Of a stretch of DNA of 64,000 nt, positions 9,479 to 53,744 are shown piece after piece. Below the pieces are notes generated by a model. That model was not told where the DNA came from. It saw nothing but the letters and a program-made list of their open reading frames with translations, and did not search any database. Source of the stretch: Tubulanus polymorphus (lineage: Eukaryota; Nemertea; Palaeonemertea; Tubulaniformes; Tubulanidae); the NCBI RefSeq assembly GCF_964204645.1, contig NC_134027.1, positions 23,982,485 through 24,046,484 on the forward strand. The letters are read 5' to 3'. Numbering within the stretch: position 1 is the stretch's first letter; the number at the start of each line of letters is the position of its first letter. Both the position numbers and the translations under genes were made by a program.

Positions 9479-12283
9479 TTATCCAGTTCCCGATTCTGAC
9501 GCGATTGGTGGATCTGTGACACGAGGAACTTGGCACTTGGCTGCATATGAATACCGTGACTGGTTAAACTTTGCGAAATCGGCGCTGTTAAACACAGCCG
9601 TGTGGTCACCAGACGATTGGCAGATTCGGTTATCCGTAGAACAACATCCGGAGTACTGATCAGTTACCCTACCCAGATAGCACGTTGAATCCAACAAGTC
9701 TTTGTAATAACACGGGAATGCCACAAAATCCATTCTACCGCATCTAAACGAGAAAAAAAACATATTCCAAATAAATCGTACTCAGAAAAGACACTACAAG
9801 CCCTCCTTAGCTTTAATGGGGTACCGGCAACGCGACTGTTGCAAGCGTAATTCCGCCATTATCCACCAGGTTCGCGAGTGTAGAGTACGGTACGACGACT
9901 TAGGAACTAGTATATTTGAATTTAGGGTCGGGTTCTATATTTTACCTGTGAACAATAAATAGAACGATGACCACACTCAAACGTGGTGAACGGATAATAA
10001 GATAAAATCCCACTATTTACAGATTAAAAGAATTTAAAAACCAGAATTTATTTATTAAATCTAAAATATTTAAAAGACACGACGTTTCGATCTCACCCTA
10101 GAGCTGATCTCTAGGGTGAGATCGAAACGTCGTGTTTTTTAAATATTTTAGATTTAATAAATAAATTCTGGTTTTTAAATTCTTTTAATCTGTAAATAGT
10201 GGGATTTTATCTTATTACCTGTGAACAAATTTTCAAGCCTTCATTTAGACAGAGCCGATAGAATATGCCCCACTTGTAATACTCTAGGTGACGAATCGCA
10301 TTTTCTGTTTGACTGTACCTTACTTAACGAACAACGCAAAAACTTTTTGAATTTGAATACCTTTAATACCCTTGATATTCTGAAAAACCCAACGGTCAAC
10401 TTAGCTAAATTCATTAAGACCGGCTTAGATGTATATAGATCCCTCCAATAGTATATATAGTATTGTAAATAGTTGATGTATATATATTTTGTTACGTTTT
10501 CATTCTCTAAATTTTAATCACTTCAGTGTTGTTTTGTAAATATTTGTATATACATGTGTAATAGTTTTCCTCCATATACCATGGAAATAGTTGGAGTGTA
10601 AATAAATCGTAATCGTAATCGTAATCGTACGACGTCGCCGCTGGATTCCATCTCGATCTAAATTAGAATCTAGCAATAATTTCTCACATTCTGTGCATGA
10701 AGCACGAAAATATCGTGATAGATGAGCTCTAAAGACTTATCAGACTTTGATTTCAATGCTTGATTTGCCTATTTTTCGGATTGGAAGACCGAAAATTGAA
10801 TACGAAGTAACTGAACTATGGAAATGAACTATTTTTGATCGATTTCGTCTGATATCTCAGTGGATATCGACGACTGATATCTCTGACGAGCTGGTATGCC
10901 GGTACCCCATCATTCGATTACAAATTATTACGCGACGAGTTGCCTTTTATAGTTTAACTAGTTTATTAGACGCACAAGCTTTCGCTACTAGTGCATAGTG
11001 GCTTCATCAAACAGGGATTTCACCAGATAAAGCCACTATGCACTAGAAGCGAACGCTCGTGCTTCAAATAAAATAGTTTACCTATGAAATACTACTCTTT
11101 TCGTTGTATTTATTCTACACCAAGTTAACGCGGCTCCTCGTGCGAAATCAACTCGCAACATTCGCAACGGATGCATGTGTATAATATGTAACATGCATGT
11201 ACAACTAGACAAACAAATTAAATTGAAATTGTGCAATATTTTTGAAAGGCTTACGTTTCACAGGTGACGTCACCAGCGCGATCTGAGCAGTGACACATCG
11301 AGCAGCCTGTCTGATTCTCGTAACGATTGGTAGCGCTGTTGAAACTAGAATCAGGAAACCTATCCGCAGTACAACCACCTGAAACATTATGATTCTGAGT
11401 CATTTTCTCGTTCATAAAATAGTCAATTACAAGAAATAAGAACATGCCATTCGTTTCATTTAACCGATGAATAAATCGACTGTTTGGTGTATTGATTCAC
11501 TAAAATCAGAAATTTTACATCGTCGGTATAAATTTGCTGCTCTTATCACGCGTTTTTCTTGAATATGGAGAAACGAATTTGTAAGTTTATTGAACTATCT
11601 TCCTAAAATATCGCATTGTAGATTTACAATCATCGTTGTGAATTTCGTTAATAAATGAATAAAATTAATTAATAAAATCTTGTAAAATTACAAGACGGTT
11701 TGTAGTTTTGTGCATTTGCATAGTAAATCAGCAAAACTGATGGATTAAATTGTATAATTGAATGTCTACAAGGACATTTTGTGAAACACAATAGATATCG
11801 CAGAAATACACTGAATTTTGTAACAATTTAATTGCAAAACTACAATTATTTCTAACAATGCAGGCAACGGTCACAAGAGACAGTTGAAAATGGTGTATTT
11901 ATTCTACGAAGTTAATTAACAAATTATGGAATGAATGTTAGGAACTTTGCTTTTCAATGAACAAAAGATAAACACGACTAAAACTGCGGATACTAATTAC
12001 GCATTGTCATTGCGGAAGCCCCATTAATCTGTATTCTGCTCAAGGCTCAGGCCTGACGCGAGCTACGAGCAATCTTCTCATGATTGCTCGTAGACACGAG
12101 TAACCCGAGCTACCTGTTGGAATGCCTGCCTAACTAGTTGGGACTGGTATGAATCTGCGAGCAATCATCTCAGAGAGATAGCTCGGACATGCAGTATGAA
12201 TTAACAGTCTTACCTATTTCTCGACTGATGGCCGCCTCCGAGACACCAGCAAATATCACACAAACCAATACAGCGAAAAACAT
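9479..12283 (-). CDS. Secreted VWC-like protein, tandem copy 1
   Basis: Three exons: 12214-12283 (signal peptide), 11255-11378 and 9479-9743, with GT-AG borders and phases 1 and 2, giving 152 residues. The signal peptide is MFFAVLVCVIFAGVSEAA. The mature part has 12 cysteines: a first one in GCTADRFPDSS, then CSMCHC and a further C in exon 2, and CYLGRVTDQY, a CC pair and IC in exon 3. This is a VWC-type pattern split across two exons, with a low-complexity tail ending SESGTG. An even cysteine count fits a disulfide-bonded extracellular protein. VWC domains often bind BMP-type growth factors or act in adhesion; the role here is unknown. Its TATA box is at 12340-12345. The large intron 2 holds a LINE fragment and a private palindrome. 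Third residue is F where the other cassette copies have Y. Confidence 0.85.
9898..10626 (+). mobile_element. 5'-truncated LINE 3' end in unit 1
   Basis: Flanked by the 8-bp direct repeat GTACGACG (9890-9897 and 10627-10634). It encodes the last residues of a LINE ORF2 with a zinc-knuckle-like CPTCNTLGDESHFLFDC pattern (stop near 10451), then an AT-rich 3' UTR ending in AAATAAATCGTA repeats. The same insertion is in unit 3 (23511-24003). Unit 2 has the uninterrupted target. The coding part is interrupted at 9956-10214 by a palindromic insertion. Confidence 0.85.
9956..10214. mobile_element. 259-bp palindromic insertion with 14-bp target duplication
   Basis: TTACCTGTGAACAA occurs directly on both sides (9942-9955 and 10215-10228) and once in unit 3, so this is a clean insertion into the LINE fragment of unit 1 only. 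Positions 9995-10103 and 10109-10217 are reverse complements over 109 bp with one mismatch, around the 5-nt loop CTGAT. No ORF. A 14-bp duplication suggests LINE-type target-primed insertion more than DNA transposition. Confidence 0.85.
10970..11070. repeat. Imperfect inverted repeat, intron 2 of copy 1
   Basis: GACGCACAAGCTTTCGCTAC and CTAGTGCATAGTGGCTTCAT are mirrored by GATAAAGCCACTATGCACTA and AAGCGAACGCTCGTGCTTC across a short loop. Present in all three units (also about 17225-17320 and 24345-24440), so it predates the triplication. A small MITE or hairpin. Confidence 0.6.
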
Positions 12284-12339
12284 GATGAAATTCTGTCCAC
12301 ACGTTAGAGTCGACTGACAAAACACAAGAAACCTGGCTG

Positions 12340-12345
12340 TTTATA
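12340..12345 (-). promoter_or_regulatory. TATA box of VWC-like copy 1
   Basis: TATAAA within TACGATATAAACAGCC, 57 bp upstream of the ATG. The same box at the same distance precedes copies 2 (18588-18593) and 3 (25715-25720), the MAM gene (32554-32559), the short VWC-like gene (38077-38082) and the gene ending at 53508 (53567-53572). Confidence 0.75.
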
Positions 12346-12554
12346 TCGTATACAGCGGTTTTTTTGAAGTGTTTAATTTAATTTTCATAAAGCGAATTCT
12401 GTTTGATAGAATGAACAGTGTCTCGATATTTCCGGATCAATGGTACATGAAATCAATAAAAAGAAACTCTGGGAGCCGAGTTGAAATTTTAAACTGAATT
12501 AGTCCCAAGGTCAATTCAACCGACGTTTTGTGGAAAATCTCAACTAAACTGACT

Positions 12555-12855
12555 GTGGAGCTGGATTCAGAGTCAAATTGAACCCTCACAACTGTTGAAC
12601 TTGATCCAGAGTCATATTAGAGCCACATAACTGTGAAACTGGGATTAAAGCCTGATTAGACCCACACGACTGAGAAACTGGATCCAGAGTCGAATTAAAC
12701 CCACACAACTGCGGAACTGGATCCAGAGTCAAATTAAACCCACACAACTGCGGAACTGGGATTAAAGCCTAACTAAACCCACACAACTGTGGAACTGGGA
12801 TTAAAGTCTAATTAAACACACACAACTGTGAAACTGAGTCCAGAATCAAAATGGA
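12555..12855. repeat. 39-bp minisatellite upstream of copy 1
   Basis: About eight 39-bp units of the type GGAACTGGATCCAGAGTCAA, then TTAAACCCACACAACTGT. Two unit variants (GGATCCAGAGTC and GGGATTAAAGTC) alternate. It lies 270-570 bp upstream of the signal exon. Confidence 0.9.
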
Positions 12856-13220
12856 TCCAGAGTATGTGGATAATCTTTTGAAAAAATCAATGAATTTGAT
12901 ATTGTAAAAATTGCTGCAACTAATTCTTCTTCGAAGTGGCCGAAGGTCTACGTTGATATTATGAAAAAGGTTTCATATTGTTTATCTCCTCTCTCAGCTT
13001 AGTATTCGAACCTGATGGTACTGAGAATGGAGAATTTATAATTTTTGGAATTCATAATTTTGCCGCAAATAGACGAGGCAGGTAATCGAGGGTGGCTTTA
13101 CAAGCTGAAACCTTTTCCCAGGTCGAACTTGGGAGGTCTTCGCATTATTTTTTGTACGATCATATATACATTAACTGCATGCTTTTTGAAACATTTAGAA
13201 TCTAGAACATTAGAGACGTG

Positions 13221-16474: not shown

Positions 16475-18531
16475 TTATCCAGTTCCCGATTCTGACGCGA
16501 TTGGTGGATCTGTGACACGAGGAACTTGGCACTGGGCTGCATATGAATACTGTGACTGGTTAAACGTTGCGAAATCGGCGCTGTTAAACACAGCCGTGTG
16601 GTCACCAGACGATTGGCAGATTCGTTTATCCGTTGAACAACATCCGGGGTACTGATCAGTTACCCTACCCAGATAACACGTTGAATCCAACAAGTCTTTG
16701 TAATAACACGGGAATGCCACAAGACTCATTCTACCGCACCTAAACGAGAAAAAAAAACATATTCCAAATAAATCGTACTCAGAGAAGACACTACAAGCCC
16801 TCCTTAGCTTTAATGGGGTACCGGCAACGCGACTGTTGCAAGCGCAATTCCACCATTATCCACCAGGTTCGCGAGTGTACAGTACGGTACAACGTCGACG
16901 CTGGATTCCTTCTCGATCTAAATTAGAATCTAGCAATATTCTTTTCAAATTCTGTGCATGAAGCACGAAAATCTCGTGATTGATGAGCTCTAAAGACTAA
17001 TCAGACTTTGATTTCAATGCTTGATTTGCCTATTTTTCGGATTGGAAGACCGAAAATTGAATACGAAGTAACTTGAAAATGAACTATTTTTGATCGATTT
17101 CGTCTGATACTTCAGTGGCGCCATCTGACGAGCTGGTATGCCGGTACCCCATCATTCGATTACAAATTATTACGCGTGAATACAACGCGACGAGTAGCCT
17201 TTTATAGTTTAACTAGTTTATTAGACGCACAAGCTTTCGCTACTAGTGCATAGTGGCTTCATCAAACAGGGATTTCACCAGATGAAGCCACTATGCACTA
17301 GAAGCGAACGCTCGTGCTTCAAATAAAATAGTTTACCCATGAAATACTACTCTTCGTTGTATTTATTCTACACCAAGTTAACGCGGCTCCTCGTGCGAAA
17401 TCAACTCGCAACATTCGCAACGGATGCATGTGTATAATATGTAACATGCATGTACAACTAGACAAACAAATTGAAATTGTGCAATATTTTTGAAAGGCTT
17501 ACGTCTCACAGGTGACGTCACCAGCGCGATCTGAGCAGTGACACATCGAGCAGCCTGTCTGATTCTCGTAACGATTGGTAGCGCTGTTGAAACTAGAATC
17601 GGGAAACCTATCCACAGTACAACCACCTGAAAGAAACATTATGATTCTGAGTCATTTTCTCGTTCATAAAATAAGTCAATTACAAGAAATAAGAACATGC
17701 CATTCGTTTCATTTAACCGATGAATAAATCGACTGTTTGGTGTATTGATTCACTAAAATCAGAAATTTTACATCGTCGGTATAAATTTGCTGCTCTTATC
17801 ACGCGTTTTTCTTGAATATGGAGAAACGAATTTGTAAGTTTATTGAACTATCTTCCTAAAATATCGCATTGTAGATTTTCAATCATCGTTGTGAATTAAT
17901 AAATGAATAAAATTAATTAATAAAATCTTGTAAAATTACAAGACAGTTTGTAGTTTTGTGCATTTGCATAGTAAATCAGCAAAATTGATGGATTAAGTTG
18001 TAGAATTGAATGTCTACAAGGAAATTTTGTGAAACACAATAGATATCGCAGAAAGACACTGAATTTTGTAACAATTTACTTGCAAAACTGCAATTATTTC
18101 TAAAAATGCAGGCAACGGTCACAAGAGACAGTTGAAAATGGTGTATTTATTCTACGAAGTTAATTAACAAATTATGGAATGAATGTTAGGAACTTTGCTT
18201 TTCAATGAACAAAAGATAAACACGACTAAAACTGCGGATACTAATTACGCATTGTCATTGCGGAAGCCCCATTAATCTGTATTCTGCTCAAGGCTCAGGC
18301 CTGACGCGAGCTACGAGCAATCTTCTCATGATTGCTCGTAGACACGAGTAACCCGAGCAACCTGTTGGAATGCCTGCCTAACCAGTTGAGACTGGTATGA
18401 ATCTGCGAGCAATCACCTCAGAGAGATTGCTCGTACATGCAGTATGAATTAATAGTCTTACCTATTTCTCGACTGATGGCCGCCTCCGAGACACCAGCAA
18501 ATATCACACAAACCAATACAGCGAAATACAT
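16475..18531 (-). CDS. Secreted VWC-like protein, tandem copy 2
   Basis: Exons 18462-18531, 17503-17626 and 16475-16739; 152 residues. Lengths and phases are identical to copy 1. The signal peptide is MYFAVLVCVIFAGVSEAA. Differences from copy 1 are mostly amino-acid changes: A to V after GCT, MDF to MSL, S to P in TDQYPGCC, N to K before RIC, K to T, R to Q and K to Q further on. All 12 mature cysteines are kept. Intron 2 is short (763 bp) because the LINE insertion is absent. TATA box at 18588-18593. Confidence 0.85.
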
Positions 18532-18801
18532 GATGAAATTCTGTCCACACGTTAGAGTCGACTGACAAAACACAAGAAACCTGGCTGTTTATATCGTATA
18601 CAGCGGTTTTTTGAAGTGTTTAATTTAATTTTCATAAAGCGAATTCTGTTTGATAGAATGAACAGTGTCTCGATATTTCCGGATCAATGGTACATGAAAT
18701 CAATAAAAAGAAACTGTGGGAGCCGAGTAGAAATTTTAAACTGAATTAGTCCCAAGGTCAATTCAACTGACGTTTTGTGGAAAATCTCAACTAAACTGAC
18801 A

Positions 18802-19425
18802 GTGGAGCTGGATCCAGAGTCAAATTGATCCCTCACAACTGTTGAACTGGATCCAGAGTCGAATTAAACTCACACAACTGTTGAACTGGATCCAGAGTCG
18901 AATTAAACCCACACAACTGTGGAACTGGATCCAGAGTCAAATTAAACTCACATAACTGCGGAAATGGGATTAAAGTCTAATTAAACCCACACAACTGTGG
19001 AACTGGGATTAAAGTCTAATTAAACACACACAACTGTAGAACTGGATCCAGAGTCGAATTAAACCCACACAACTGTGGAACTGGATCCAGAGTCAAATTA
19101 AACTCACATAACTGCGGAAATGGGATTAAAGTCTAATTAAATCCACACAACTGTGGAACTGGGATTAAAGTCTAATTAAACACACACAACTGTAGAACTG
19201 GATCCAGAGTCGAATTAAATTCACACAACTGTGGAACTGGATCCAGAGTCAAATTAAACTCACATAACTGTGAAACTGGGATTAAATTCTAATTAAACAC
19301 ACACAACTGTGGAACTGTGTCCAGATCCGAAATCAAATTAAACCCTCGCAACTGCGGAACTGAGATCAAAGTCTAATTAAACCCACACAACTGTGGAACT
19401 GAGTCCAGAATCAAAATGGATCCAG
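18802..19425. repeat. 39-bp minisatellite, expanded array upstream of copy 2
   Basis: About 15-16 units, twice as many as in units 1 and 3. A higher-order period of four units (156 bp) is visible: a GTAGAACTGGATCC unit, a GTGGAACTGGATCC unit, a GCGGAAATGGGATT unit and a GTGGAACTGGGATT unit recur in that order. Growth was thus by multi-unit duplication. Confidence 0.9.
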
Positions 19426-19883
19426 AGTATGTGGATAATATTTTGAAAAAAATCAATGAATTTGATATTGTAAAAATTGCTGCAACTATTTCTTCTTCGA
19501 AGTGGCCGAAGAGTCGAGGGTCTACGTTGATATTATGAAAAAGGTTTTATATTGTTTATCTCCTCTCTCGGCAAGTATTCGAACCTGATGGTACTGAGAA
19601 TGGAGAATTTATAATTTTTGGAATTCATAATTTTGCCGCAAATAGACGAGGCAGGTAATCGAGGGTGGCTTTACAAGCTGAAACCTTTTCCCAGGTCGAA
19701 CTTGGGAGGTCTTCGCATTATTTTTTGTACGATCATATATACATAAACTGCATGCTTTTTGAAACATTTAGAATCTAGAACATTAGAGACGTGTATATAA
19801 GCTATATACGCGTAGGCCTACAACAAAGCAAAACAATTTAATAAAATATCTTTTCGCTAAAACAGCTATAATAATATATCAAT

Positions 19884-25658: not shown

Positions 25659-25928
25659 GATGAAATTCTGTCCACACGTTAGAGTCGACTGACAAAACAC
25701 AAGAAAACTGGCTGTTTATATCGTATACAGCGGTTTTTTGAAGTGTTGAATTTAATTTTCATAAAGCGATTTCTGTTTGATAGAATGAACAGTGTCTCGA
25801 TATTTCCGGATCAATGGTACATGAAATCAATAAAAAGAAACTCTGGGAGCCGAGTAGAAATTTTAAACTGAATTAGTCCCAAGGTCAATTCAACTGACGT
25901 TTTGTGGAAAATCTCAACTAAACTGACT

Positions 25929-26238
25929 GTGGAGCTGGATTCAGAGTCAAATTGAACCCTCACAACGGTTGAACTTGATCCAGAGTCATATTAGAGCCAC
26001 ATAACTGTGAAACTGGGATTAAAGCCTGATTAGACCCACACGACTGAGAAACTGGATCCAGAGTCGAATTAAACCCACACAACTGCGGAACTGGATCTAC
26101 CAGATCCAAAATCAAATTAAACCCTCACAACTGCGGAAATGGGATTAAAGCCTAACTAAACCCACACAACTGTGGAACTGGGATTAAAGTCTAATTAAAC
26201 ACACACAACTGTGGAACTGAGTCCAGAATCAAAATGGA
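25929..26238. repeat. 39-bp minisatellite upstream of copy 3
   Basis: About eight units in the same order as unit 1, with one unit carrying a local insertion (CTACCAGATCCAAAATC) near 26098. Confidence 0.9.
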
Positions 26239-29329: not shown

Positions 29330-29497
29330 GGAATATCATGGCAAAGACTGAGTTCGTCTGGGGTAAGACGTTAAATCCGAATCGAGAAAGACTCAGTGAT
29401 TGAAGAACAATGGAACACGCGCACAATACATATGAATTTAACGTTTATTGCGAGCACTGAATGCATATCTTCTGTATCGACATGTAGAGATAGATCG

Positions 29498-32496: not shown

Positions 32497-32553
32497 GATG
32501 AAGTTCTGTCCACGCGTTTGAGTCGACTGACAAAGATACGTCAAAACTGACCG

Positions 32554-32559
32554 TTTATA
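32554..32559 (-). promoter_or_regulatory. TATA box of the MAM gene
   Basis: TATAAA within ATACGATATAAACGGTCA, 58 bp upstream of the ATG. Nearly identical to the promoter of the short VWC-like gene at 38019. Remnants of the 39-bp minisatellite follow at about 32770-32840. Confidence 0.7.
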
Positions 32560-37101: not shown

Positions 37102-38019
37102 TTATTCAACTTGTACTTCACTAGTGGGGCTCTGATTGGCATTGGCAACATTGCCACACTGGTTGTTATACGAACTAAATCTACAATCAAACATTTTGAA
37201 TTATAATCACATTTACGGATTCAGTTTCGAAATTCTTTAAGAATTTGAAAAGGCTTACTGAGCGCAGGAAGCGGTTCCACCGTCGCGACCTCCGCAGGTA
37301 CATTTTTCGGTACAGTCGCCATTCACCTCCTCGTATTCGCCCGTAGCTGCATTGAGACTAGAATCGGGGAACCTCTCTACTGTACACGCACCTGTTAGTG
37401 GACATTACAATTTCAAATCATTAATTCATTCATAGATTCATCAACCAGTCTATGAAATTATTCACCAAATACAAAATTTCATTTATCCATAAATCAACTA
37501 GCATTAGGCGTTAAGATCGGCAAAGCGGTCCGTCATTTACTTTTACTTGTCGTTCTCGCCGATTTAAAGCTAAATTTTCTAGAATATTCATCAATCCTTC
37601 AAAACCGTGTAAAATGGATTTGAAAACGATGATTTATCTGGACTGCACAACCCTACTGATTCGATTAAAACATATTTGAGGTATGCACACCCAAAATTAA
37701 GCGAAATATCCAGACAAGATCGTGGACAATCAAAAATAAATAGACTTTACCCTTACCAGTACGCGAGTTTGATCGAATCAAAACGATATACACGAAAGCG
37801 TCGCACGATTTTTTGATAATTCAAATCGAACAATTAGAAAAACATAACTAGAAATTTGACTGGAGCATTTTATTGGGACACCTTGCGGTGTCTTAAGGCA
37901 AAGTGAAATTTCCAGTTATGTCTTGTGTGTGAATTAGAATTCATCTTACCGGGTTCCTGCCATGTGGCTGCTTCAGTAGCACCAGCGAATACCACACAAA
38001 CCAATACGGCGAAATACAT
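37102..38019 (-). CDS. Short secreted VWC-like (half-domain) protein, copy 1
   Basis: Three exons: 37950-38019, 37259-37391 and 37102-37180; GT-AG, phases 1 and 2, 93 residues. The signal peptide is MYFAVLVCVVFAGATEAA. Exon 2 has the ACTVERFPDSSLNAATGEYE start and the CTEKCTC pattern, homologous to exon 2 of the long genes. Exon 3 is unrelated to theirs: 26 codons with one cysteine (YNNQCG) and a polar tail. The mature protein thus keeps only the first half of a VWC domain, with six cysteines. It is probably a separately folding secreted peptide; function unknown. TATA box at 38077-38082. Its upstream neighbour block leads to GPCR 2. Confidence 0.8.
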
Positions 38020-38076
38020 GATGAAATTCTGTCCACACGTTTGAGTCGAGTGACAAAAATACGTGAAAACTGACCG

Positions 38077-38082
38077 TTTATA
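38077..38082 (-). promoter_or_regulatory. TATA box of the short VWC-like gene
   Basis: TATAAA in GATATAAACGGTCA, 58 bp upstream of the ATG at 38019. The sequence 38053-38360 matches the MAM gene promoter at 32530-32840, including a vestige of the 39-bp minisatellite. Confidence 0.7.
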
Positions 38083-40247
38083 TCGTATACCGGTACATAA
38101 ATTTTTGAAGTGTTTGAATGAATCTGATTTTCATTGATAGCATGTTCTCTGTTTTGTTCGATAGAACGAATATTTTTTCGATATTTCCAGCCCAAAGCTA
38201 TATTAAATCAATAACATATCTGGGTGCCGAATAGAATTTTCAGACTAAATAAATCCCAAGACCAATTCAACCTTCGTTTTGATGCACATCTCACTTAAAT
38301 AACAGTGGAACTGGATTTTGAGTCACATAAACGCACACAACTGTGGAACTGAGTCCGGATGGAATGTTTTGCCTGTCTGACATCCTAAACATCTATTCTG
38401 CTGGTTCTAAAATAATGGTACTGACAATTTCTGATACTGGAAATTCATAATTTTCTTTTTCTGTATGTACGTATCATACGTTAGTGCATGCTTTTGGAAT
38501 ATTTCGAATATAGAAGAACATTTGAGACATATTGCATGGGCGGCATACGTGTAGGCCTATAACAAAGCGAAACAAATCAATTATATCCGTTCACTAAAAC
38601 AGCTCAAGCAATATATTCAAATTAAGTATGTAAATATCGACTCGCTGGTATTTACAATGCTATTAAGTATTGTCGCAATTTAAACATTGGATCGGATTTG
38701 CGATGTGCCATGAATCAGGTGATTTCTAAACGAACGCTGTGACCGTACATGACTGGTTGGATTGAAAGTTATAAATTTAGATATGGTAACATAAAATTGA
38801 TCGACACACTGTTCTTCAGAACAGTTTTTTTTAAACAGTTACGTGCTCACAGATGCAATCTCGGGCATTCTTTTACTTCAATTTCTCATCAAACAGAACA
38901 GGTTTAACTACGGATAATCTAAGCTTATTTTACAGGATACTGCTGTATGCACTGTATGTATACACTCAGCCACGGCACGAACCCCTGCCACAGTAGACCT
39001 GGTGCGCCGGTACATGCGCAGCTTTGCCGCGCTTATACTTGCGGCACCAATCAGATTGCTCGTTGAATAATCGCCGAGGCAAATTTCACGGAAGAACTAT
39101 AAATGGTAAAACCTGGACTAAAATAAAATGGGATTTCTTATTGGCTATAATGACATAATCTAAGCTGCGCGTGTAGCTGCGCCCTCGGTCTAGCAGGGGT
39201 TCGGGGGTTCGTACGGCAATCTCGGTGCCATCAGGTTCGAATACCTGCCAGGGTAGGATGCATCGATCCATATATGGACATTTGAACGGGTTCAGCCGAA
39301 GTCTTCGGCTAAGGAAAAACAACTGCTGTTGACGGTGAATGTGTTTCTTATCGTATGCACAATAAGTATCGTAAAAATGCGTCAGTTTTGTCGGGGCATA
39401 ATGAAAAAAACTGAGCTTACCTATTGACTACTTTTACACTTGTTGATCGGCTTTTTAGAAGAAAAAGTCTACTACAAAATGAATCATCTGATGTGCATGG
39501 ACATAACTATCAAAAGTAATTTTTATCACATCTATGAACTATCGATACTTTATGTTAAATGGTACACCGTATCATCACTAGTGGATAGCCGTAACATTGG
39601 TGGATAGATGTTTATTTGAACCCGGACATCTTACTCGACATCGCACGTAGTTCAAACCCTTTCGCTGCGTATGACGTTGGATCGACGCCATGTATACGGC
39701 AAATCGATTCGAGTTGTAAGGAAAAGTCTATCTTTTTGTTCTACAGAAAGCGAAAGAAAATTCACTAGTTCTTGGTGTATTCTTTCAATCATTTGACTCT
39801 ATGGTTTTATCAATTTTAACTTTTGGGGCTGAAGTTTGAGGGTTCAAAAAGTTGCAATCTATTATCGATTTTGACTTTAAGGGCTGAGGTATTGGTGCAA
39901 TGAACACGTACAATCTGTTAACAACTGCCTTACTTATGATTAATCTGTTTTACAAATATTCCGGATAATTAGAAAATAAGATACATATATATCCAATTCC
40001 AGCAATAACCTTGATAGTCGCTGTTTCGCTATTTATGCATTCCAGTCATCAAATAACAGTTCAGCCCATTTAATTTAAGACGTTTGGAACTTAATATACA
40101 ATAAATTTATCAAATTTGTGAAAAATATCGATAAAAAGATAATCATTTCAAACTTGTATTCATAGTTGAGTTGACTGTAATTCATGTCCAAATTAGGGCT
40201 GTATCTGATTGTCAACATAGTCACTAGATTTAGTTTTATCTTGTTCC

Positions 40248-41273
40248 TTAGCGACAATGGTTGCAAAATGTATTGCGGGCAATTTGTCTAAACTTGACGC
40301 TAGACAGACAATACAGAAAAAAATTTACACAGGAGTCAATTTGCGATAGGAAGTGTTGCAAAGTATTCAAAAGTATGTTCCGGCCGTTCATAAAAGCAAG
40401 AATTCGGGATGCTATCGTTGGACTTTCACAAATAAGGTAAATAATCACTGCGGACAGGGCTAACATTGTAGCGTGTGTGTCACCTGCAGTTCCGACTGAC
40501 GATGACTTGGACATCTTTTTACGTTGTGATGTTGCTCTGATTACGATTCTGATCAACGCGATATTAGTAATTGAGAGAAATGCGAACGGCATCGTTACGA
40601 CGAATATGATGTTTGTTAAACGACCAGCCAACCTTCCAGCAGGAAGAACACCCTGGCCTAACATTATACGATTAAACAACGGACAATCATTGTATCTAGG
40701 TATCAGGGTGTTAAAACGCCAACGATACACGTGTGTCAAAAAACAAAATATAAACAGACCCACGACAGAGAACGTACATCTTTTTTGAGTAATGAAAGCT
40801 CGGGATTTCAGCGGGAACGACAGTTGCAACCAACGCTCAATACTGATCATAGCTATCAACCAGTTCCGGTACATCTTAACGGTCATATTGGATATTGATG
40901 TGTAATATTTGGAATAAGGGCCGAGAAAATAACTATCGAGGTAGTGATAATTAATGTAGCCCAATTCCCAAAGTCCTATAAAATCTGAAATGCTGGTTAA
41001 ACAAAAATTGACAACGAGATAGAATGAATCGACGACAGCGAGGATGCTGAGCAGGTAGTATGTAGCGACCACGCTCGAGTACATGCGTCTCAAAATAATA
41101 AAACTCACACAATTGAGGACTAAACCGGTCACGCTTACAACTGTAAAACCGAAGGCTCGAATATACAATTCGTATTCTCGAATATCCCAAAAACGTTGAC
41201 TAAAACACTCGTGAATTGTGTTAGATTGATTATTGTCATACAGTCTAAAAACCGTCAATTTGGTCTCATTCAT
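40248..41273 (-). CDS. Rhodopsin-type GPCR 2, FMRFamide-receptor-like
   Basis: 341 residues, single exon, seven hydrophobic segments. The N-terminus (MNETKLTVFRLYDNNQSNT) is longer than in GPCR 1 and 3 because an earlier ATG is in frame; it holds the N-glycosylation sites NET and NQS. It keeps GLVLN, LAVVD, ERW and NFFLY. The C-terminus lacks the final YGT of the paralogs. Differences cluster in extracellular loop 1 (TSISDFIGLW) and the N-terminus (WDIREYELY), where ligand contact would be expected. Ligand unknown. Confidence 0.8.
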   Translation of the reverse strand: MNETKLTVFRLYDNNQSNTIHECFSQRFWDIREYELYIRAFGFTVVSVTGLVLNCVSFIILRRMYSSVVATYYLLSILAVVDSFYLVVNFCLTSISDFIGLWELGYINYHYLDSYFLGPYSKYYTSISNMTVKMYRNWLIAMISIERWLQLSFPLKSRAFITQKRCTFSVVGLFIFCFLTHVYRWRFNTLIPRYNDCPLFNRIMLGQGVLPAGRLAGRLTNIIFVVTMPFAFLSITNIALIRIVIRATSQRKKMSKSSSVGTAGDTHATMLALSAVIIYLICESPTIASRILAFMNGRNILLNTLQHFLSQIDSCVNFFLYCLSSVKFRQIARNTFCNHCR

Positions 41274-42965
41274 GTTCTGTGGAGTCCATCAGATACGAAT
41301 ATTGCGCTTTCGAAAGCTTTCATATTACATGATCATGTCATCTAGAATTAATGAGCTCGCGCATATATCTTTACTCAGGTTTAAGGCTGAAAAGAACTTA
41401 ATGTATTCAGTGTAGACATGAATGAATAGAAAGATTCTCTCCCATGCATATCGGCTTCTAAAGCGGAGTTTCATCAAGATCATTTGCCGTCAAAAAGTTA
41501 CGAACATGATATAATGACTCTTATAGCGTATATAAATGTGTGAATATATTCATCCGATTCACGTGTATTTTACCGAGTTATCAGAGGATATGATCGCAAA
41601 AACTTTTGTATGATTAAACTGTTCCCTTTTCCGAGCAGATTCTAATACTTCATGTAGTTTTTCACTTATTTGACTTTATGGTTTTATCAATTTCAACTTT
41701 TGGGGCCAACATTAGGGGCTGACGTTTGAGGGTTAAAAAAATTACAAATTTTTATCAATTTTTTTAAACTTTGAGGCTGAAGTTTAGGGCCACGAAAACG
41801 TAAGATCAGTTGAACGACTTTAACTCCTTTTCTGTATAAACTATCATAACAGGGAGGAATCTGTTCTAAATCACTCCACGCATCTAATTGGTTTCATACA
41901 TGTATTGGAAGTTCAACTGCAACAGATACTTGTTGCAAGTAGAAATAGGGGAAACTAAAATTGTGAAATGATATCGACCACCCACTTTGGTGAAAATATA
42001 TTGGAATTTGAAAGTCTTTCCTACAATCCGGGAAATATTTCGGAAATTTATTACTTTCAAACTGCACTTCATGTAGCATTTGCCACTGGCAACTTTCTTC
42101 GGCGGTTCTCTTGAAAATCACTATTACCACCCAGTCCCCGTTCAATGCTGACATATCCCCGTTGTATGACGGTATCTGCTGGTTCCCATTTTTGAAAATT
42201 GAAAATTGACCCATGAATACGAGGAAATTTTGAACGCGTACAACTCAGTGAACATATTAGAATAATTTGCCGGTTAGGTAATTATCCCTAATGATCAGTT
42301 ATTTTCATAAGACAGTAGTCCACATAATCTATAATATCTGACCTTAGAATGGGGAGTTTTTAAAAAAATGTGTCTAAATTCTGATTTGGTTTTACTTTTA
42401 TATCATTTACGAACCCACCACATCTGTCGGGCACGAAATGGCCTTCCGAACGAAAACCGGGTTTAACGGTTTATCTCGATATTTTTAATCTCTGAATAAT
42501 TAAAGCAACGCCTTTTCAGACAACATAACTTAACACTGCTTGTTGCAATTTCAAATAAATCCAGGTTGTGATTATCATAGTTGTTTTATGTATGTGAAGC
42601 CATGGAGAGTTTTTTTACAAATGGATTTTACGCTTCAATAAATTATTGGCTTGAAAACTGCCTTAGTTAAGTTATGATTAACTTGCTTTTTTCGAATAAT
42701 CAGAACATTGTCAAGAGAAAGAAATCCCAATTGAAATATAAGATACATGTATATCCAATTCTAGCAGTAACTTAAATAGTCACCATCTACAAAGAGCTTT
42801 TTGTGCATACCGATCATTAAATGACAGCTCAGCCCATTTCATCTGAAACGTTTGGAACTTAATATACAATTTATCAAATTTGTGAAATCTCGATAAAAAG
42901 ATAATCATTTCGAACTTATATTCATAGTTGAGTTGACTGTCTACATGGTCACTAGATTTATTTTA
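41274..42965. other. Spacer between GPCR 2 and GPCR 3
   Basis: No gene is seen. 41650-42240 resembles 54930-55560 and partly the 3' flanks of the GPCRs (the shared GGTTTTATCAATTT followed by CAACTTTTGGGG). A 106-codon ORF at 41894-42214 is broken in the related copy and is not supported. Confidence 0.5.
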
Positions 42966-43970
42966 TTAAGTTCCATAGCGACAATGGTTGCAAAATGTAT
43001 TGCGGGCAATTTGTCTAAACTTGACGCTAGACAGACAATACAGAAAAAAATTTACACAAGAGTCAATTTGCGATAGAAAGTGTTGCAAAGTGTTCAAAAG
43101 TATGTTCCTGATGTTCATCAAAGCAAGAATTCGGGATGCTATCGTTGGACTTTCACAAATAAGGTAAATAATCACTGAGGACAGGGCTAACATTGTAGCC
43201 TGTGTATCACCAGCAGTTCCGACTGTCGATGACTTGGACATCGTTTTACGTTGTGATGTTGCTCTGATTACGATTCTGACCAACGCGATATTAGTAATTG
43301 AGAGAAATGCGAACGGCATCGCTATGATCAATACAATGTTTGTTGAACGACCAGCCAATTTTCCATCCGGATGGACGTCCTGGACAAACATCATACGATT
43401 ATACAACGGACAATCGTTGTATCTAGGTATCAGGGTGTTATAACGCCAACGATACACATGTGTCAAAAAACAGAATATAAACAGACCCACGACAGAGAAC
43501 GTACATCTTTTTTGAGTAATGAAAGCTCGGGATTTCAGCGGGAACGACAGTTGCAACCAACGCTCAATACTGATCATAGCTATTAGCCAGTTTCGATACA
43601 TCTTAACGGTCAAATTGGCTATTGTTGTGTAATATCTCGCATAAGGGCTGAGAAAATGACTATCGAGATAGTGATAATTAATGTAGCCCAATTCCCAAAG
43701 TCCTTTATAATCTCCAAGGCTGGTAAAACATAAATTGATAACGAGATAAAGAGAATCGACGACAGCGAGGATGCTGAGCAGGTAGTATGTAGCGACCACG
43801 CTCGAGTACATGCGTCTCAGAATAATAAAACTCAAACAGTTGAGGACTAAACCGATCACACTTACAAATGTTCCACCGAAGGCTCGAATATACAATTGGT
43901 ATTCTCCATTTTTCCAGAAACGTTCACTGAAACACTCGTGAATTGTGTTAGATTGATTATTGTCGGACAT
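42966..43970 (-). CDS. Rhodopsin-type GPCR 3, FMRFamide-receptor-like
   Basis: 334 residues, same start and end as GPCR 1 (MSDNNQSNT to HCRYGT). Class A landmarks are unchanged. The second extracellular loop reads MMFVQDVHPDGKLAGRS against MMLGQGVLPAGRVAGRS in GPCR 1, a cluster of replacements in a ligand-facing loop. The intracellular side is conserved (ATSQRKTMSKSS). Duplicated with the short VWC-like gene in block beta. Confidence 0.8.
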   Translation of the reverse strand: MSDNNQSNTIHECFSERFWKNGEYQLYIRAFGGTFVSVIGLVLNCLSFIILRRMYSSVVATYYLLSILAVVDSLYLVINLCFTSLGDYKGLWELGYINYHYLDSHFLSPYARYYTTIANLTVKMYRNWLIAMISIERWLQLSFPLKSRAFITQKRCTFSVVGLFIFCFLTHVYRWRYNTLIPRYNDCPLYNRMMFVQDVHPDGKLAGRSTNIVLIIAMPFAFLSITNIALVRIVIRATSQRKTMSKSSTVGTAGDTQATMLALSSVIIYLICESPTIASRILALMNIRNILLNTLQHFLSQIDSCVNFFLYCLSSVKFRQIARNTFCNHCRYGT

Positions 43971-44907
43971 TCTGAAACCGTTAATTTGATCTCGTTTATT
44001 TTCTATTGTGTGAATCGGATACGCATATTACGCTTTCGCAAGTTTTCACATTTCATAATCACGTCATCTAGAAATAATGAGCTCGCGCATCTATCATTAA
44101 ATGTATTCAGTGTAGACATGAATGAATAGAAAGATTATCCCCCAGGCATATCGGCTTCTGAAACGGAGTTTCATCAAGATTATTTCCCAGTTAAAAAATC
44201 ACGAACACAATATACCGACTCTTATAGCGCATAAATGTGTGATAATAATCATCCGATTCACGTGTATTTTACCTCGGGATCAGAGGATATGAAAAAACGA
44301 AAACGTTTACGCGAACAAACCGTGCTCATATTCTGACCGGATTCAGATACTCAATAGGATAAATAGATGTGTCTTGATGAGGTTGTGCTCTTTTATGGCA
44401 TCCGAAATCACTATTTGGCTCCACAAAAAAAATCCGAATCACACGTCCGCCCCGACAGAACGGAGGTTTTGGGCTAGATCCAAAAGGTCATGTGATCAAT
44501 AACGAGAAGGGATTCTCCGATCTGGTAAAATATTACACCCCTTGGTTTGATCCGACGGATCAGTAGGGGTCGAGACACCCTCTGCTTTTATTCTTTGACG
44601 TCTTTCGACAAAGGTTCTCATGTTTTCTCCAGAACTTGCTTTTTTCGGATCTATTACATATGTTACTTGCGATAGTTTCCAGTATATATGTGTTAACGTG
44701 TATCGACGTTTTTTAACTTTATGTTTTTGTGTGATTTAATGATGTGATATTGAGTACTTTTATCATGTACTTTAAACTAACAGTACCTTACATCAATCTT
44801 TCCTCTTTAAAGCTTTGCACATATTGTATTCTGTTGATTCTTTCTCGTGTTATCTTTGTTCCATTGACTATCATGTAATTTAATTGTGATTAATAAAACC
44901 TTTAAAG

Positions 44908-45135
44908 ATGAAAAATAAAGATACTAGAAGATGCTGCGTTCGAATATGTTTTGTCCTCTTAGTCTTTTGCTCCTTTAAACCCGATTCTTATGGATTCAGC
45001 TTTGAAAACATGTCGAATGCCACCATCAGATTATGTATTCATACAATTTACACGTACCACAGTATTTCCTATTACAAGCAAGAAAATAGTCATACAAAAC
45101 CGAAATTTCCATTCGACTTCGACAAAATTCTGTAA
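44908..45135 (+). CDS. Doubtful small ORF, copy 2
   Basis: 75 codons starting MKNKDTRRCC; duplicate of 36629-36856. See that entry for the substitution count. Confidence 0.2.
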   Translation: MKNKDTRRCCVRICFVLLVFCSFKPDSYGFSFENMSNATIRLCIHTIYTYHSISYYKQENSHTKPKFPFDFDKIL

Positions 45136-45379
45136 ATTCGCATGGTGGTTGGGATGAGAAAATCACTTCAATCAATAATAAATGAATCACTATTTCAAGA
45201 TAAAAGATAACGTAACTAACTAGAATACATCGCTTTTAATTTTACCGGTATTTTAATTTTGCTACGTATTTAGAATAAAACTTAGACAGTCTACATCTCA
45301 AATATGGATGAAATTGGAAGTGAAATAATTACTTGTTAAAACATGACACCAAATTATTTCACAAGCAGATTTCCGCAGA

Positions 45380-46241
45380 TTATTCAACTTGTACTTCACT
45401 AGTGGGACTCTGATTGGCATTGGCACCATTGCCACACTGGTTGTTATACGAACTAAATCTACAATCAAACATTTTGAATTATAATCACATTTACGGATTC
45501 AGTTTCGAAATTCTTTAAGAATTAGAAAAGGCTTACTGAGCGCAGGAAGCGGTTCCACCGTCGCGACCTCCGCAGGTACATTTTTCGGTACAGTCGCCAT
45601 TCACCTCCTCGTATTCGCCCGTAGCCGCATTGAGACTAGAATCGGGGAACCTCTCTACTGTACACGCACCTGTTAGTGGACATTACAATTTCAAATCATT
45701 AATTCATTCATAGATTCATCAACCAGTCTATGAAATCATTCACCAAATACAAAATTTCATTTATCCATAAATCAACTAGCATTAGGCGTTAAGATCGGCA
45801 AAGCGGTCCGTCCTTTACTTTCCTGTCGTTCTCGCCGATATAAAGCTCAATTTTCTAGAATATTCATCAATCCTTCAAAACAGTGTCAAATGGATTTGAA
45901 AACGATGATTTATCTGGACTGCACAACCCTACTGATTCGATTAAGACCTATCTGAGGTATGCACACCCAAAATTAAGCGAAATATCCCGAAAAGATCGTG
46001 GACAATCAAAAATAAATAGACTTACCCTTACCCTTACCAGTACGCGAGTTTGATCAAATCAAAACATAACTAGAAATCTGACTGGAGCATTTTATTGGGA
46101 CACCTTGCAGTGTCTTAAGGCAGAGTGAAATTTCCAGTTATGTCTTGTGTGTGAATTAGAATTCATCTTACCGGGTTCCTGCCATGTGGCTGCTTCAGTA
46201 GCACCAGCGAATACCACACAAACCAATACAGCGAAATACAT
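45380..46241 (-). CDS. Short secreted VWC-like (half-domain) protein, copy 2
   Basis: Exons 46172-46241, 45537-45669 and 45380-45458; 93 residues, nearly identical to copy 1, all splice sites intact. Two control sites are altered: the TATA region reads CGATAAGATAGCC instead of CGATATAAAC, and the poly(A) block downstream reads AATTAAAATACC in place of AATAAAATACC. The protein is intact, but expression may be weak. Confidence 0.75.
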
Positions 46242-46565
46242 GATGAAATTCTGTCCACGCGTTTTGAGTCGAGTGACAAAAACTCTGATCAAAACTGGCT
46301 ATCTTATCGTACAGCGGTTTCAGATGTTTCGAAAATGTTCAAATTCGATTCTTATCAAGCGAATTCTGATGGATAGAATAGATAATCAGTTAAAAATGTT
46401 AAATGAAGTGAACAGGTTCTTAACCTTTTGGTTTATGCTGCAACAAATAGCCGTGTTATTCTCGAGAAACTAGTAGGCCCTAAAAAAACGGTACCCCGAA
46501 CGAATTTAGTAACCCGAGACGTGCCTGTCTAACCAGTAAGGACTGGCATGAATTAACAGTCTCAC

Positions 46566-46635
46566 CTATATCGCCGCTGATGGCCGCCTCCGAAACACCG
46601 GCAAATACCACACAAACTAATACGGCGAAATACGT
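46566..46635 (-). pseudogene. Dead signal-peptide exon
   Basis: Homologous to the 70-nt signal exons and still has a usable donor (GTGAG). Its start codon is ACG, and the TATA box is changed (GACATTAAC for GATATAAAC). An in-frame ATG at 46681-46683 could add 17 residues, but no second exon of its own lies downstream. The next exon on this strand belongs to the gene at 45.4-46.2 kb. Confidence 0.75.
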
Positions 46636-46852
46636 GATGAAATTCTGTCCACGCGTTTGATTCGACTGACAAAAACACGTCAAAACTGGCAGTTAATGTC
46701 GTATACCCCGAGAGAATTCAGTTTTTATTTAAAAAAAAATATAATTGAAAACTCGGATTGCATTGTAGATGAAATCAATTAAAGTTGCCAAGGCGAATTA
46801 AACCAACAGCTGTGAAACTGGATTTTGAGGCAAACCAACCCAACAGCTCGAT

Positions 46853-49138: not shown

Positions 49139-50206
49139 TCATTTTATTTGGGTGACACTGAATAATGAATTTAGAATGTCAAGAGATACTTTTCGGAATT
49201 TTTCATTTGTCACACAATACACGATGAAATTTGCTGACGAATCGACGATAGAAAATCCTAACGCTATTTGTCTCATAATGTGCAAATGTGGGATATATCC
49301 TAAAGCCATTAAACGGTCGATAAAACCAAAACCTTCACAAATGATAAACAACAAAACTACTGATAAAATCATCTTTAAAATCGTCATTTCTCTTCTAGAC
49401 GATTCATCAGTTATACCGAGCTCTGAACGTCGAGTAACCCGACGGTAAAATATCGCCAAAATAAGAATAGCATTGATAACGATTAATAAACAAATTGGGA
49501 CCATAACAGTAAGATACATGAATAAATAGATCCCAGAAATTGTGAAACGCCATCTGTAATGCTCAAACCACCTTGGATAGCGATACGCTTTGGCACGTAC
49601 TGTAACATATGGCCACTCAGCAGGACAATTCAGAAATCTAAGATGTTGTGTGGGTATGAAATGAATAAGATGACCACAAAAACTCAGCAGTGAAATGAAT
49701 ATCATCGCCGAAACTGATATCAATTTCTTAGGAAATTTTCGAGATTTTATCGGAAACAATACGACGATTAACCGCTCTAGACTGAGCAGCACAGTGCACC
49801 AGTTACGTGTCATCTGAAACATGTAGAAAAACGGCAAGGCAACGGAGATGAAAATCCAACCATAATTCCAGTCGTTCCAGCGAAATACAATATCTCCCAA
49901 AACGGCGTAAATGTACGCAGTTCTCAGCGGATACATAATGAATGTAGCGATCATAAACAAAAGATCGTTAATGGCGAGGATTTTGATGAGAAAATAAATA
50001 TCAGATTTAAACTGTTTCAGAACTAACAGCGTGAATGCGTTGAATATCAAACCCAGCACAGACGCCGGTAGATACCAGCATAAATACGTAAATACATTGA
50101 ATTTGTTGATCCATCTAACGGGACCAGTTTGCATTTCTTGACACGGGTTGAGTTGTTGAGTTGTTGTCAACGCAGAAGTTATATCAGTGATGTTGTTATC
50201 AAGCAT
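49139..50206 (-). CDS. Rhodopsin-type GPCR 4, divergent
   Basis: 355 residues, one exon, seven hydrophobic segments. Class A landmarks: GLIFN in TM1, LAIND in TM2, SLERL in place of DRY, and NFIVY in TM7. N-terminal NIT (residues 5-7) is a possible glycosylation site. Extracellular loop 1 is long and aromatic (DIVFRWNDWNYGW). It is clearly related to, but much more diverged than, GPCR 1-3, and closest in pattern to the pseudogene at 47 kb. A peptide ligand is likely, identity unknown. The 5' flank to 50560 shows no promoter element I recognise. Confidence 0.8.
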   Translation of the reverse strand: MLDNNITDITSALTTTQQLNPCQEMQTGPVRWINKFNVFTYLCWYLPASVLGLIFNAFTLLVLKQFKSDIYFLIKILAINDLLFMIATFIMYPLRTAYIYAVLGDIVFRWNDWNYGWIFISVALPFFYMFQMTRNWCTVLLSLERLIVVLFPIKSRKFPKKLISVSAMIFISLLSFCGHLIHFIPTQHLRFLNCPAEWPYVTVRAKAYRYPRWFEHYRWRFTISGIYLFMYLTVMVPICLLIVINAILILAIFYRRVTRRSELGITDESSRREMTILKMILSVVLLFIICEGFGFIDRLMALGYIPHLHIMRQIALGFSIVDSSANFIVYCVTNEKFRKVSLDILNSLFSVTQIK

Positions 50207-50719
50207 CTCATAAGCTGTGAATTATAGACTGTCCAACAGTTTAATCATTCTGTATTGAATGGGTTCATCAGTGAAACTTTCAGTGAATGAGACTTGAATT
50301 CAATTTAGAATCATCTCCCTGTTCCATTTGTTTGAAGCTAAGCTGCCCATCCCTAACTGGATTTTACAAGATGGAATCATCAATCTAACAGAATTTGAAT
50401 TCATAGTACCGTCGTGCTTAATTTGTGTAAATGAATATCCAAAGTCTGTCGTCAACACTCTTCGCACTAGCGTGTAGTATAGAAGCGACTCAAAGATTGT
50501 AAATACCTTTGCATAATTTCGGCAGTGGATGTGAACATTGATTCGTGTTCAATAAAACAAAAAAATGAAATCCGCGTAAAATTTGGTTATTTTATTGCTG
50601 TAACTTTTTCATGGTGGACTCCTGGGGTATTCGGTTTCACTTGAAGTATGATCTATCCACATGGGCTACGACCATCTAACATGATGCATATATCATACTT
50701 GCCATGACAGAGGTTTGCA

Positions 50720-51451: not shown

Positions 51452-53508
51452 TTATCCAGTTCCCGATTGTACCAAGATTGGTGGAGTGTTGGCATTACGA
51501 TTGCACTGGGCTGCATATGAGTGCTTCGACTGGTTAAAACTGGTGAAATCGGCGCTGTTAAACATAGCCGTGTGGTCACCAGACGATTTGCAGATTCGGT
51601 TATCCGTTGAACAACATCCGGGATATTGATCAGTTACCCTACCCAGATAACACGAACGGCGCAACAAGGATTTATACATACACGGAGATAAAACGGAACT
51701 CATTGAACCACACCTGCGAATAAAAACATATTCAGAATAAATTCAGGAAAGACACCGCTTGCCCCTTTCCCGGCTTTTACTATGTAACTATTTTGATTAT
51801 TGATTATTACCAAATCTGCGGTTTATTTTCTTAACTAAAACGATTTTTAGAACAGATGAAATCAATCGACATATTTTTCTTGGCGATTGTCACCAGATTG
51901 AGGTCGCAATGTTAAACTACTGATTGCTTTCTAGCGCGTGTATATCGGGAATTCTACGCCATCATAATTGTTAAATGAGTAAATCTCGAGCCGGTTCCGA
52001 TCGACTATTGCTAAAAGGCTTACGTCTCACAGGTGACGTCACCAGCACGATCTGCACAATAACACAATTGACAATCTCCCTGCTCCTCGTAACGATTGGT
52101 ACCCTTGTTGAAACTAGATTCGGGAAACCTCGCCTTAGTGCAACCACCTGAAAGAAAACATTGTGATTTATAGTCATCAATTCATCTATGAATTTATCAA
52201 TTATAGAAAATAAACGAACAATATATCATTCATTCATTCATTCGTCCGTCCATCCGTCCGTCCGTCCGTACGTTCGTAAACAAATCCTGTAAACAAAACT
52301 CTTTGGCTGATTCATTCATTCGAGTATCATTAAAGGACGCTTTGAGGTAATAAATGTTTCTTTTTTCTTTTTTTGACGAAATTGATGATATTTCAGAGTG
52401 ATGAGTAATGACAGAATACACGAAGCAAAATATTCGGATAGATAGAAATGTAACGAGAAATTAGTTTTCTTTACAATTTCATTAGGTTCCTGTTCAAATA
52501 TTGAAATTTAAAAAAGATCTATATTCTGACCTAGAAATCCTCGCATCTTTCCTCTGAGATTCAAATCGTTTGTAGCACATATTTGCAGGGGGTTGCACCC
52601 CCTTTCTTCACGAGGACGTTTGTTATCTAGCTTGCGTTCACTCTTACAAAAACTTACAAAACTAATGGAAAACCATAGTAGCGGCAACAGCGACGAAATA
52701 AGGGCTACGCTTAGTTACTAATCTAAAGATTAAGAGATGCGTCTAAGGCTTATAATGAATTATATACATGATTAGGCTAAAACTATGAATAAGTATCTAA
52801 ACAATTATAGTTTTGAAGTAATTCCTACTACTAATTACTGATTAATTAAATCCTTCATTGCTTAATGGTAAAAAATCTAAGTTAGATATTTAAAAGTTTG
52901 AATATAAGAGAACTGCTGCAATAAAAACTCTCTAATCAGTTCTTTCTAATTAGCTCAATCTGTTTTTCGTTGGTTTGAGAGTAGAACACGTCATCAAGAT
53001 TGAGACCTAATGGTGTTGAAGTCCATACTGCCAACATCCTTCACGAATATTATGTTTTTTTGAATCACACTTATCTATGATCTCGACCACTGAGATCGAA
53101 GGGATTATGACCTGAGCTTCTAAAGTGTAAATAATAAACAGGATCATCATTTGTACGCGGATTGCGAAGTCGAGATTTATAGTTATTCGTGCTCAATAGA
53201 AAACTATTCGTGGAACCGACACATTTCATTTGACAAACAGCATACGATAATAAATAGATTACATTTTCCGAATTACAGTTAAAGGAATAGTTTATCGTGA
53301 AAACTTCAGGAGCAACAATTTTGTTTCCGGTTATAACTACGGGACAAATTTGACAACGTACACTATAATATGAGTAACCCAAGGATACAGTTCGGAACTG
53401 TTTAACCAGTTGGGACTGGTATGAATTTACAGTCTTACCTTTTTCAAAACTGAGGGCCGCCTCCGAAACACCAGCAAATACCACGCAAACCAATAAAGCG
53501 AAATACAT
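51452..53508 (-). CDS. Secreted VWC-like protein, distant paralog
   Basis: Exons 53439-53508, 52024-52147 and 51452-51713; GT-AG, phases 1 and 2, 151 residues. The signal peptide is MYFALLVCVVFAGVSEAA. Exon 2 gives GCTKARFPESSF and CQLCYC; exon 3 keeps CYLGRVTDQYPGCC and IC. Twelve cysteines lie in the same order as the tandem copies, but about a third of other residues differ, so this split predates the triplication. TATA box 53567-53572; 39-bp minisatellite remnant 53745-53895; poly(A) block near 51155. Intron 1 holds a Penelope-like remnant. Confidence 0.85.
52228..52276. repeat. ATTC/GTCC microsatellite
   Basis: Runs of ATTC then CGTC units in intron 1 of the VWC-like gene. Confidence 0.85.
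52945..53375 (-). mobile_element. Penelope-like element remnant, GIY-YIG domain
   Basis: Minus-strand translation gives NVIYLLSYAVCQMKCVGSTN (the YIG motif changed), then RSSGHNPFDLSGRDH, a YLHF motif, CWQYGL and, after a one-base shift, TPLGLNLDD. This order is the C-terminal GIY-YIG endonuclease of Penelope-like retroelements. No reverse transcriptase part remains, and a stop and a frameshift disrupt it. It lies in an intron, so it is not part of the host protein. Confidence 0.7.
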
Positions 53509-53744
53509 GATGAAATTCTGTCCACACTTTTGAGTCGACTGACAAAAAACCTGTCAAAACTGGCTGTTTATATCGTATACAGCGGTTTTTGAAATGTTTG
53601 CATTTTTTCGAGAGAAAGCAGTTAGAATGGATATCACATCGATGGTGCATGAAAATCAATAAAAAGTAACTGGATCCCGAGTAGAAATTTCAAACCAAAA
53701 TAGTCCCAAGGACAATTCTCAACCTACGTTTTGATGCAAAACCC

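Follow-up and report, generated by a model that had tools for sequence, protein, structure and literature searches.

Analysis of a 64,000-nt stretch of Tubulanus polymorphus DNA (C3:23982485-24046484, here called the window), together with searches of the 267.8-Mb genome, points with a probability of a little over three in four to a promoter-signal cassette of ~180 bp that has undergone copying, flanks included, and recombination, and that drives and exports several different secreted proteins. The evidence, as read from the DNA, consists of the cassette copies themselves, intact gene models, a fusion of the cassette to a MAM-domain body in intron 1, a crossover inside the cassette of gene 38019, a leftover cassette with no start codon, and a promoter and leader that are more conserved than the proteins. 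The bodies that follow the cassette also occur elsewhere without a recognizable cassette. As we read it, the cassette comprises a conserved upstream box, a TATA-type core, an Inr-like start, a leader of ~32 nt and a signal exon, which in the window genes has a phase-1 donor. Transcription would start at the Inr, exon 1 would be spliced to each body, and each body would be exported by means of the cassette signal exon. Selection for one secretory cell type would keep the promoter, and the swaps could have been made by unequal crossing-over or gene conversion between cassettes, combined with joining in intron 1.

The initial annotation had proposed seven cassettes with a 70-nt, phase-1 signal exon, and each was borne out at its start codon (7/7, all on the minus strand, with ATGs at 12283, 18531, 25658, 32496, 38019, 46241 and 53508). 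In all seven genes, exon 1 is 70 nt long and its last base, G, is followed by GTAAG, so that the exon ends in phase 1; the signal peptide that it encodes is predicted, as judged by eye. Cassettes 1, 2, 3 and 7 include a promoter, a leader and a signal exon and lie at 12214-12393 (TATAAA 12345-12340, signal exon 12283-12214), 18462-18641 (TATAAA 18593-18588, signal exon 18531-18462), 25589-25768 (TATAAA 25720-25715, signal exon 25658-25589) and 53439-53618 (TATAAA 53572-53567, signal exon 53508-53439). Cassette 4, that of the MAM gene, has the same parts at 32427-32606 (TATAAA 32559-32554, signal exon 32496-32427). Cassette 5 (gene 38019; 37950-38129) is a recombinant whose 5' part resembles the MAM gene and whose 3' part resembles gene 46241, and cassette 6 (gene 46241; 46172-46351, signal exon 46241-46172) has a degenerate TATA sequence. 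A TATA box had been placed 57-58 bp upstream of the start codon; TATAAA is indeed present in six of the seven genes, but its first base lies 62-64 bp 5' of the ATG (57-58 fits the other end of the box), and gene 46241 has GATAAGA in its place and no canonical TATA box. An Inr-like TCAGTCG or TCACTCG begins 34-35 bp 5' of the ATG in every gene (7/7), which is 28-30 bp past the start of TATAAA in the six genes that have one. Intact acceptors and exons follow all seven cassettes, with two further coding exons in the four long genes, nine in the MAM gene and one in each short gene.

The cassettes belong to a 151-nt repeat family with eight copies in the window. An eighth, orphan cassette (46566-46745, minus strand) lies 394 bp upstream of cassette 6, with ACG replacing ATG at 46635 and no body of its own in the space between the two. 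An inverted, promoterless remnant of a signal exon lies on the plus strand at 57205-57264. Between the cassettes are minus-strand open frames of 346-360 aa (34788-35849, 40248-41288, 42966-44027 and 49139-50221); both frames that were scanned matched rhodopsin-type GPCR profiles, 49139 over the cut-off and 34788 below it, and frames 34788, 40248 and 42966 fall in a 300-nt repeat family. The window also holds a reverse transcriptase open reading frame of 597 aa at 3789-5582 (minus strand; RVT_1, E 2.5e-34) and, at 6745-8151 on the plus strand, a single open frame of 468 aa that matched condensation (E 5.5e-9) and alcohol-acetyltransferase (E 2.8e-8) domains.

The MAM gene at 32496 is complete, with ten coding exons encoding 488 aa and GT/AG at every intron border. 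Its three-MAM body (29498-32245, minus strand) occupies nine of these exons and ends at a stop codon at 29500-29498, with AATAAA at 29449. Each MAM unit is an exon triplet with phases 1-1, 1-0 and 0-1, the last triplet ending in the stop, and the MAM profile (PF00629, cut-off 26.4 bits) was matched in the window at 51.5 bits (C3:24013072-24013344), 44.3 bits (C3:24012140-24012385) and 43.3 bits (C3:24013982-24014215). Cassette homology stops at +99 (32397), and homology to MAM paralogs begins at 32343; the join therefore falls in a ~54-bp interval of intron 1 (32343-32397, minus strand, delimited by the ends of the blastn matches). Both flanks of this intronic breakpoint are in phase 1, and such a phase match is what exon shuffling calls for. 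Nine MAM relatives, part of those found in the genome, were searched for the cassette over 3.0-3.5 kb of 5' sequence each, and none contained it at E < 1 (0/9; weak matches at E 2.9, 7.2 and 8.1). Four of the MAM relatives (L034, L035, L036 and L041) have in common another candidate first exon, which ends in phase 0, and in L034 and L035 the exon after this candidate is MAM derived and ends in phase 1. Very similar MAM exons occur in series, with a repeat spacing of ~2.1 kb, at C3:23760592-23769667.

Gene 38019 joins two kinds of neighbor within the cassette. It matched the MAM gene in four blocks of 90-96% identity from -2928 to +39 and not beyond, and it matched gene 46241 at 92-93% identity from -75 to +3238, with no match upstream of -75 at the threshold used except in the orphan cassette. 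At sites that discriminate between the MAM gene and gene 46241, 38019 is of the MAM-gene type at 29 of 30 from -122 to -41 and of the 46241 type at 42 of 42 from +25 to +116, those past about +99 falling in MAM-gene sequence that has no cassette homology (Fisher p 2.6e-19 for the split, the sites being not independent). Four more sites lie between -41 and +25, three of the 46241 type and one of the MAM-gene type, and it is in this interval, within the cassette, that the switch point lies. The comparison of cassette and body trees that had been proposed as a check gave the same picture, as the 38019 cassette groups with that of the MAM gene (98/99) and its exon 2 groups with that of 46241 (95/85). 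An AU test against a 38019-46241 grouping in the cassette tree gave a p of 0.029 with 21 cassettes and of 0.069 with the 15 genes having exon 2. Thus, one upstream DNA fronts two bodies, and one body follows two upstream regions. The closer upstream match (96% versus 92%) suggests that 38019 is the recombination product.

The remaining window genes encode cysteine-rich proteins. The four long genes have three coding exons, with introns in phase 1 and then phase 2, and encode 151-152 aa (149-152 aa among the nine completed long models). Their bodies, all on the minus strand, lie at 9479-11378 (gene 12283; exon 2 11378-11255, exon 3 9743-9479), 16475-17626 (gene 18531; exon 2 17626-17503, exon 3 16739-16475), 23091-24749 (gene 25658; exon 2 24749-24626, exon 3 23355-23091) and 51452-52147 (gene 53508; exon 2 52147-52024, exon 3 51713-51452). 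The first three of these genes sit one each in three tandem units of ~6.2-7.1 kb at 9.5-28 kb of the window, which share long blocks of 90-98% identity. The short genes have an exon 2 at 37259-37391 (gene 38019) and 45537-45669 (gene 46241), also on the minus strand, and a search for an exon 3 in them found none. Because exon 2 is common to the long and short genes, they form one related family; the window therefore holds two kinds of protein rather than the three that had been announced, and the description of the downstream exons as unrelated holds for the MAM body but not between long and short genes. A further short-type exon 2, followed by GTAAGC, occurs at 56605-56745 (minus strand), with no cassette found upstream of it on its strand within the window; it lies ~0.5 kb from the plus-strand signal-exon remnant at 57205-57264, and the two look like a gene split by inversion.

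The label "VWC-like" given to these proteins was unsupported by Pfam or by profile comparison. VWC (PF00093) gave no match in the four assembled proteins at E values up to 10 (filters drop most matches above 0.1) and 92 matches in the genome, none of them on C3, and hhalign gave a probability of 0.5% over 11 columns, with the best shuffled controls scoring higher. Genome-wide, the single-domain VWC profile (PF15430) was matched twice, below threshold and away from any cassette, once on C4 and once on C1. With E values allowed up to 10, a PDB profile search returned eight matches, of which the top six were to RanBP2/Nup153 zinc fingers (best E 0.0012); we took these as CxxC similarity. Positive selection on the bodies was likewise considered and set aside; in the 21.4-Mb copies dN exceeded dS (33 versus 5 differences in one pair, 47 versus 9 in a second), but not significantly (p values of 0.30 and 0.48; the long gene at C3:23966416 is outside these sets). 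On C1, a remote relative within the cysteine-rich family showed no cassette match at E values up to 50; its signal exon also ends in phase 1 and, to judge from the sequence, might be an old homologue.

Across the genome, a 24-nt core pattern with ≤3 mismatches found 22 sites, spread over four contigs, more than chance would give, as the reversed pattern used as a control found 0 and 0. A 158-nt cassette query also gave 22 matches, 21 of them at the same places (57210 was found by the query only and C10:13308086 by the core only), and a scan of the fetched loci containing these places with a cassette profile recovered 24 places at E values below 1e-10. Sorted by downstream sequence, the 24 are 12 long genes, 3 short genes, 1 MAM gene, 2 on C9, 2 on C10 and 4 that are broken (46635, 57210, C3:23954441 and C10:13307243); by our sorting, 20 of the 24 have either a start codon and donor that are still intact or a body. 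Eight of the 12 long cysteine-rich genes are in the cluster at 23.95-24.04 Mb, three at 21.36-21.42 Mb and one on C4. Since most copies (the 12 long and 3 short genes) carry one homologous body family, independent swaps to unrelated bodies have been few, once for the MAM body and once for the C9 body. We also looked for the promoter without the signal exon. A pattern for the TATA region gave 17 matches, comprising 13 known cassettes and 4 other sites (with 3 mismatches), and the reversed control gave 5. With 4 matches off the cassettes against 5 in the control, there is no good evidence of the promoter on other genes.

The two C9 genes each read as three exons with every junction in phase 0 and a body unrelated to the others, which was found at two places and additionally as a fragment and one weak match. 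Their first exon resembles the cassette only over its initial 22-39 or so coding bases (the extent varies with the pair compared), and it ends in phase 0. The initial annotation had held that the phase-1 donor lets any exon starting in phase 1 be joined, a rule that the window genes, the MAM gene included, follow; the phase-0 end of the C9 exon means that a phase-1 donor is not the sole route. On C10 (C10:13300000-13312000; L011, L044), a small cysteine exon recurs in several copies behind both cassettes, and these exons sit in phase 0, a mismatch with a phase-1 donor. The larger proposal of a fixed promoter-plus-signal module with swapped bodies was upheld by the MAM join in intron 1, the 38019 crossover and the different body on C9.

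How far the cassette is conserved was measured over 20 pairs drawn from seven diverged long genes, with the most similar pair omitted. Mean identity was highest in the leader (5'UTR; 87%), followed by the promoter (76%), exon 1 (76%), exon 2 (71%) and exon 3 (65%), with upstream flanks at 57-61%, introns at 53-55% and shuffled sequence at 52-55%. Silent-site divergence, taken from seven genes of which six are also in the identity set, was 0.27 in exon 1 versus 0.53 in the body and was lower in exon 1 in 19 of 21 pairs. On these sequence comparisons, the cassette DNA is either under constraint or has been exchanged more recently than the bodies, and gene conversion instead of selection could account for the low divergence of exon 1.

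The latter thought can be carried further, in that gene conversion among neighboring cassettes might give them the look of a module with no need for selection for a shared expression program. The mosaic cassette of 38019 fits such conversion, as does an exon 1 with half the silent-site divergence of the bodies. We nonetheless regard conversion as a rather improbable account of the whole, for the promoter and leader are also conserved in copies on C4 and in copies on C3 at a distance of ~2.6 Mb, for which less frequent exchange is expected, and the C9 pair is conserved as well (71-76% identity over longer blocks); conversion and selection are, besides, not mutually exclusive. Less probable again, and in our judgment distinctly unlikely, is an ordinary tandem family whose cysteine-rich genes simply kept the cassette as their ancestral 5' end, the 32496 copy being an orphan located by chance in front of a MAM gene that has a promoter of its own. 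In favor of this view, 4 of the 24 places hold orphan or broken cassettes, and most copies carry one body family. Unlike the orphans, however, the 32496 copy is intact in its TATA box, Inr, start codon, donor and phase, and only 181 bp lie between its donor and the acceptor of the first MAM exon. When 32246-36000 was scanned for first exons that the MAM gene might use, the cassette and a single other candidate came up, the latter with a phase-2 end that would be incompatible with the join. The C9 genes, with a second unrelated body behind the cassette, also speak against a plain tandem family.

Very improbable, finally, is an arrival of the cassette before genes by transposition, either as a mobile element itself or as cargo of a 39-bp minisatellite. 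Arrays of the 39-bp unit do lie upstream of cassettes on C3 (in the window at 12435-12968, 18721-19449 and 25926-26225), C4 and C10, C9 has diverged units that occur singly, and a first look genome-wide gave 484 candidates for the unit (40 scored, 214 matches). However, none of 20 sampled arrays was followed by a cassette within ~2.4 kb (the best promoter-only match had E 0.029 over 25 bp and the best profile match E 4.3). The 39-bp repeat is a dispersed minisatellite, and we rejected it as a cassette-specific enhancer. The cassette itself has only 22 core sites genome-wide, and at 20 of its 24 places it keeps a start codon and donor, or a body.

The closest known relative of the copied and recombined cassette that we favor is the WFDC/Kunitz (SPINT)/semenogelin (REST) locus on human chromosome 20, described in the available text of the source (PMC3209443) as a cluster of genes in which a conserved signal exon and a phase-1 exon-2 acceptor go with unrelated secreted bodies, and in which a Kunitz gene is suggested to have come under the control of regulatory sequences from a WFDC gene. 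The conserved signal exon before unrelated bodies is found here as well, as is the phase-1 exon-2 acceptor in the window genes, the C9 pair (phase 0) excepted. In contrast, that locus has a conserved third, 3' untranslated exon (PMC3209443), whereas the downstream parts are not shared here; a search for a block shared 3' of the body by the MAM gene and the long genes found none except a stretch of 172-184 bp (99% identity, 3.8-4.5 kb downstream of the ATG), which is at the end of the compared stretch and has no assigned place in either gene model. In T. polymorphus, the breakpoints are located in intron 1 and inside the cassette itself, and the copies are on four contigs, unlike the arrangement described in the available part of PMC3209443, from which the word "promoter" is absent. 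In conotoxin superfamilies, according to the portion of PMC3862624 consulted, intron 1 is in phase 1 and intron 2 in phase 2 in most cases, and a mature-peptide exon has been proposed to become linked to a different signal exon through recombination. The long genes have the same two intron phases but no propeptide exon; there is no evidence for venom here, the bodies include three MAM domains, and the conserved unit takes in the promoter and leader (compare PMC3862624, as available). A secreted trypsin family of Nematostella gland cells has similarly been diversified by tandem duplication and exon shuffling, MAM-bearing forms included (PMC6767649, in the part available), but there the protease domain is the constant part, and the main text, so far as available, describes no shared promoter-signal cassette and does not contain the word "promoter." What the present case adds to the WFDC/REST and conotoxin precedents is a promoter inside the conserved unit, copies on four contigs and unusually direct breakpoints, located to tens of bases. 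Our literature search found no publication on this locus, although one may still exist.

The acquisition of expression and export at once by new secreted proteins usually has to be pieced together from events that are ancient and indistinct. A single genome here presents the constant unit together with old and new bodies, cassette-free relatives and breakpoints, and the promoter is conserved above the proteins that it is taken to drive, so that promoter capture by exon shuffling becomes directly testable with transcripts. We also suggest, tentatively and as something we rather doubt, that the cassette is an evolutionary platform, with recombination occurring preferentially in its 180 bp and in intron 1 and repeatedly placing new proteins under one gland-type promoter and signal peptide. 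If so, the platform would give T. polymorphus a fast-changing secretion from one cell type, for which neither a promoter nor a signal peptide need evolve anew.
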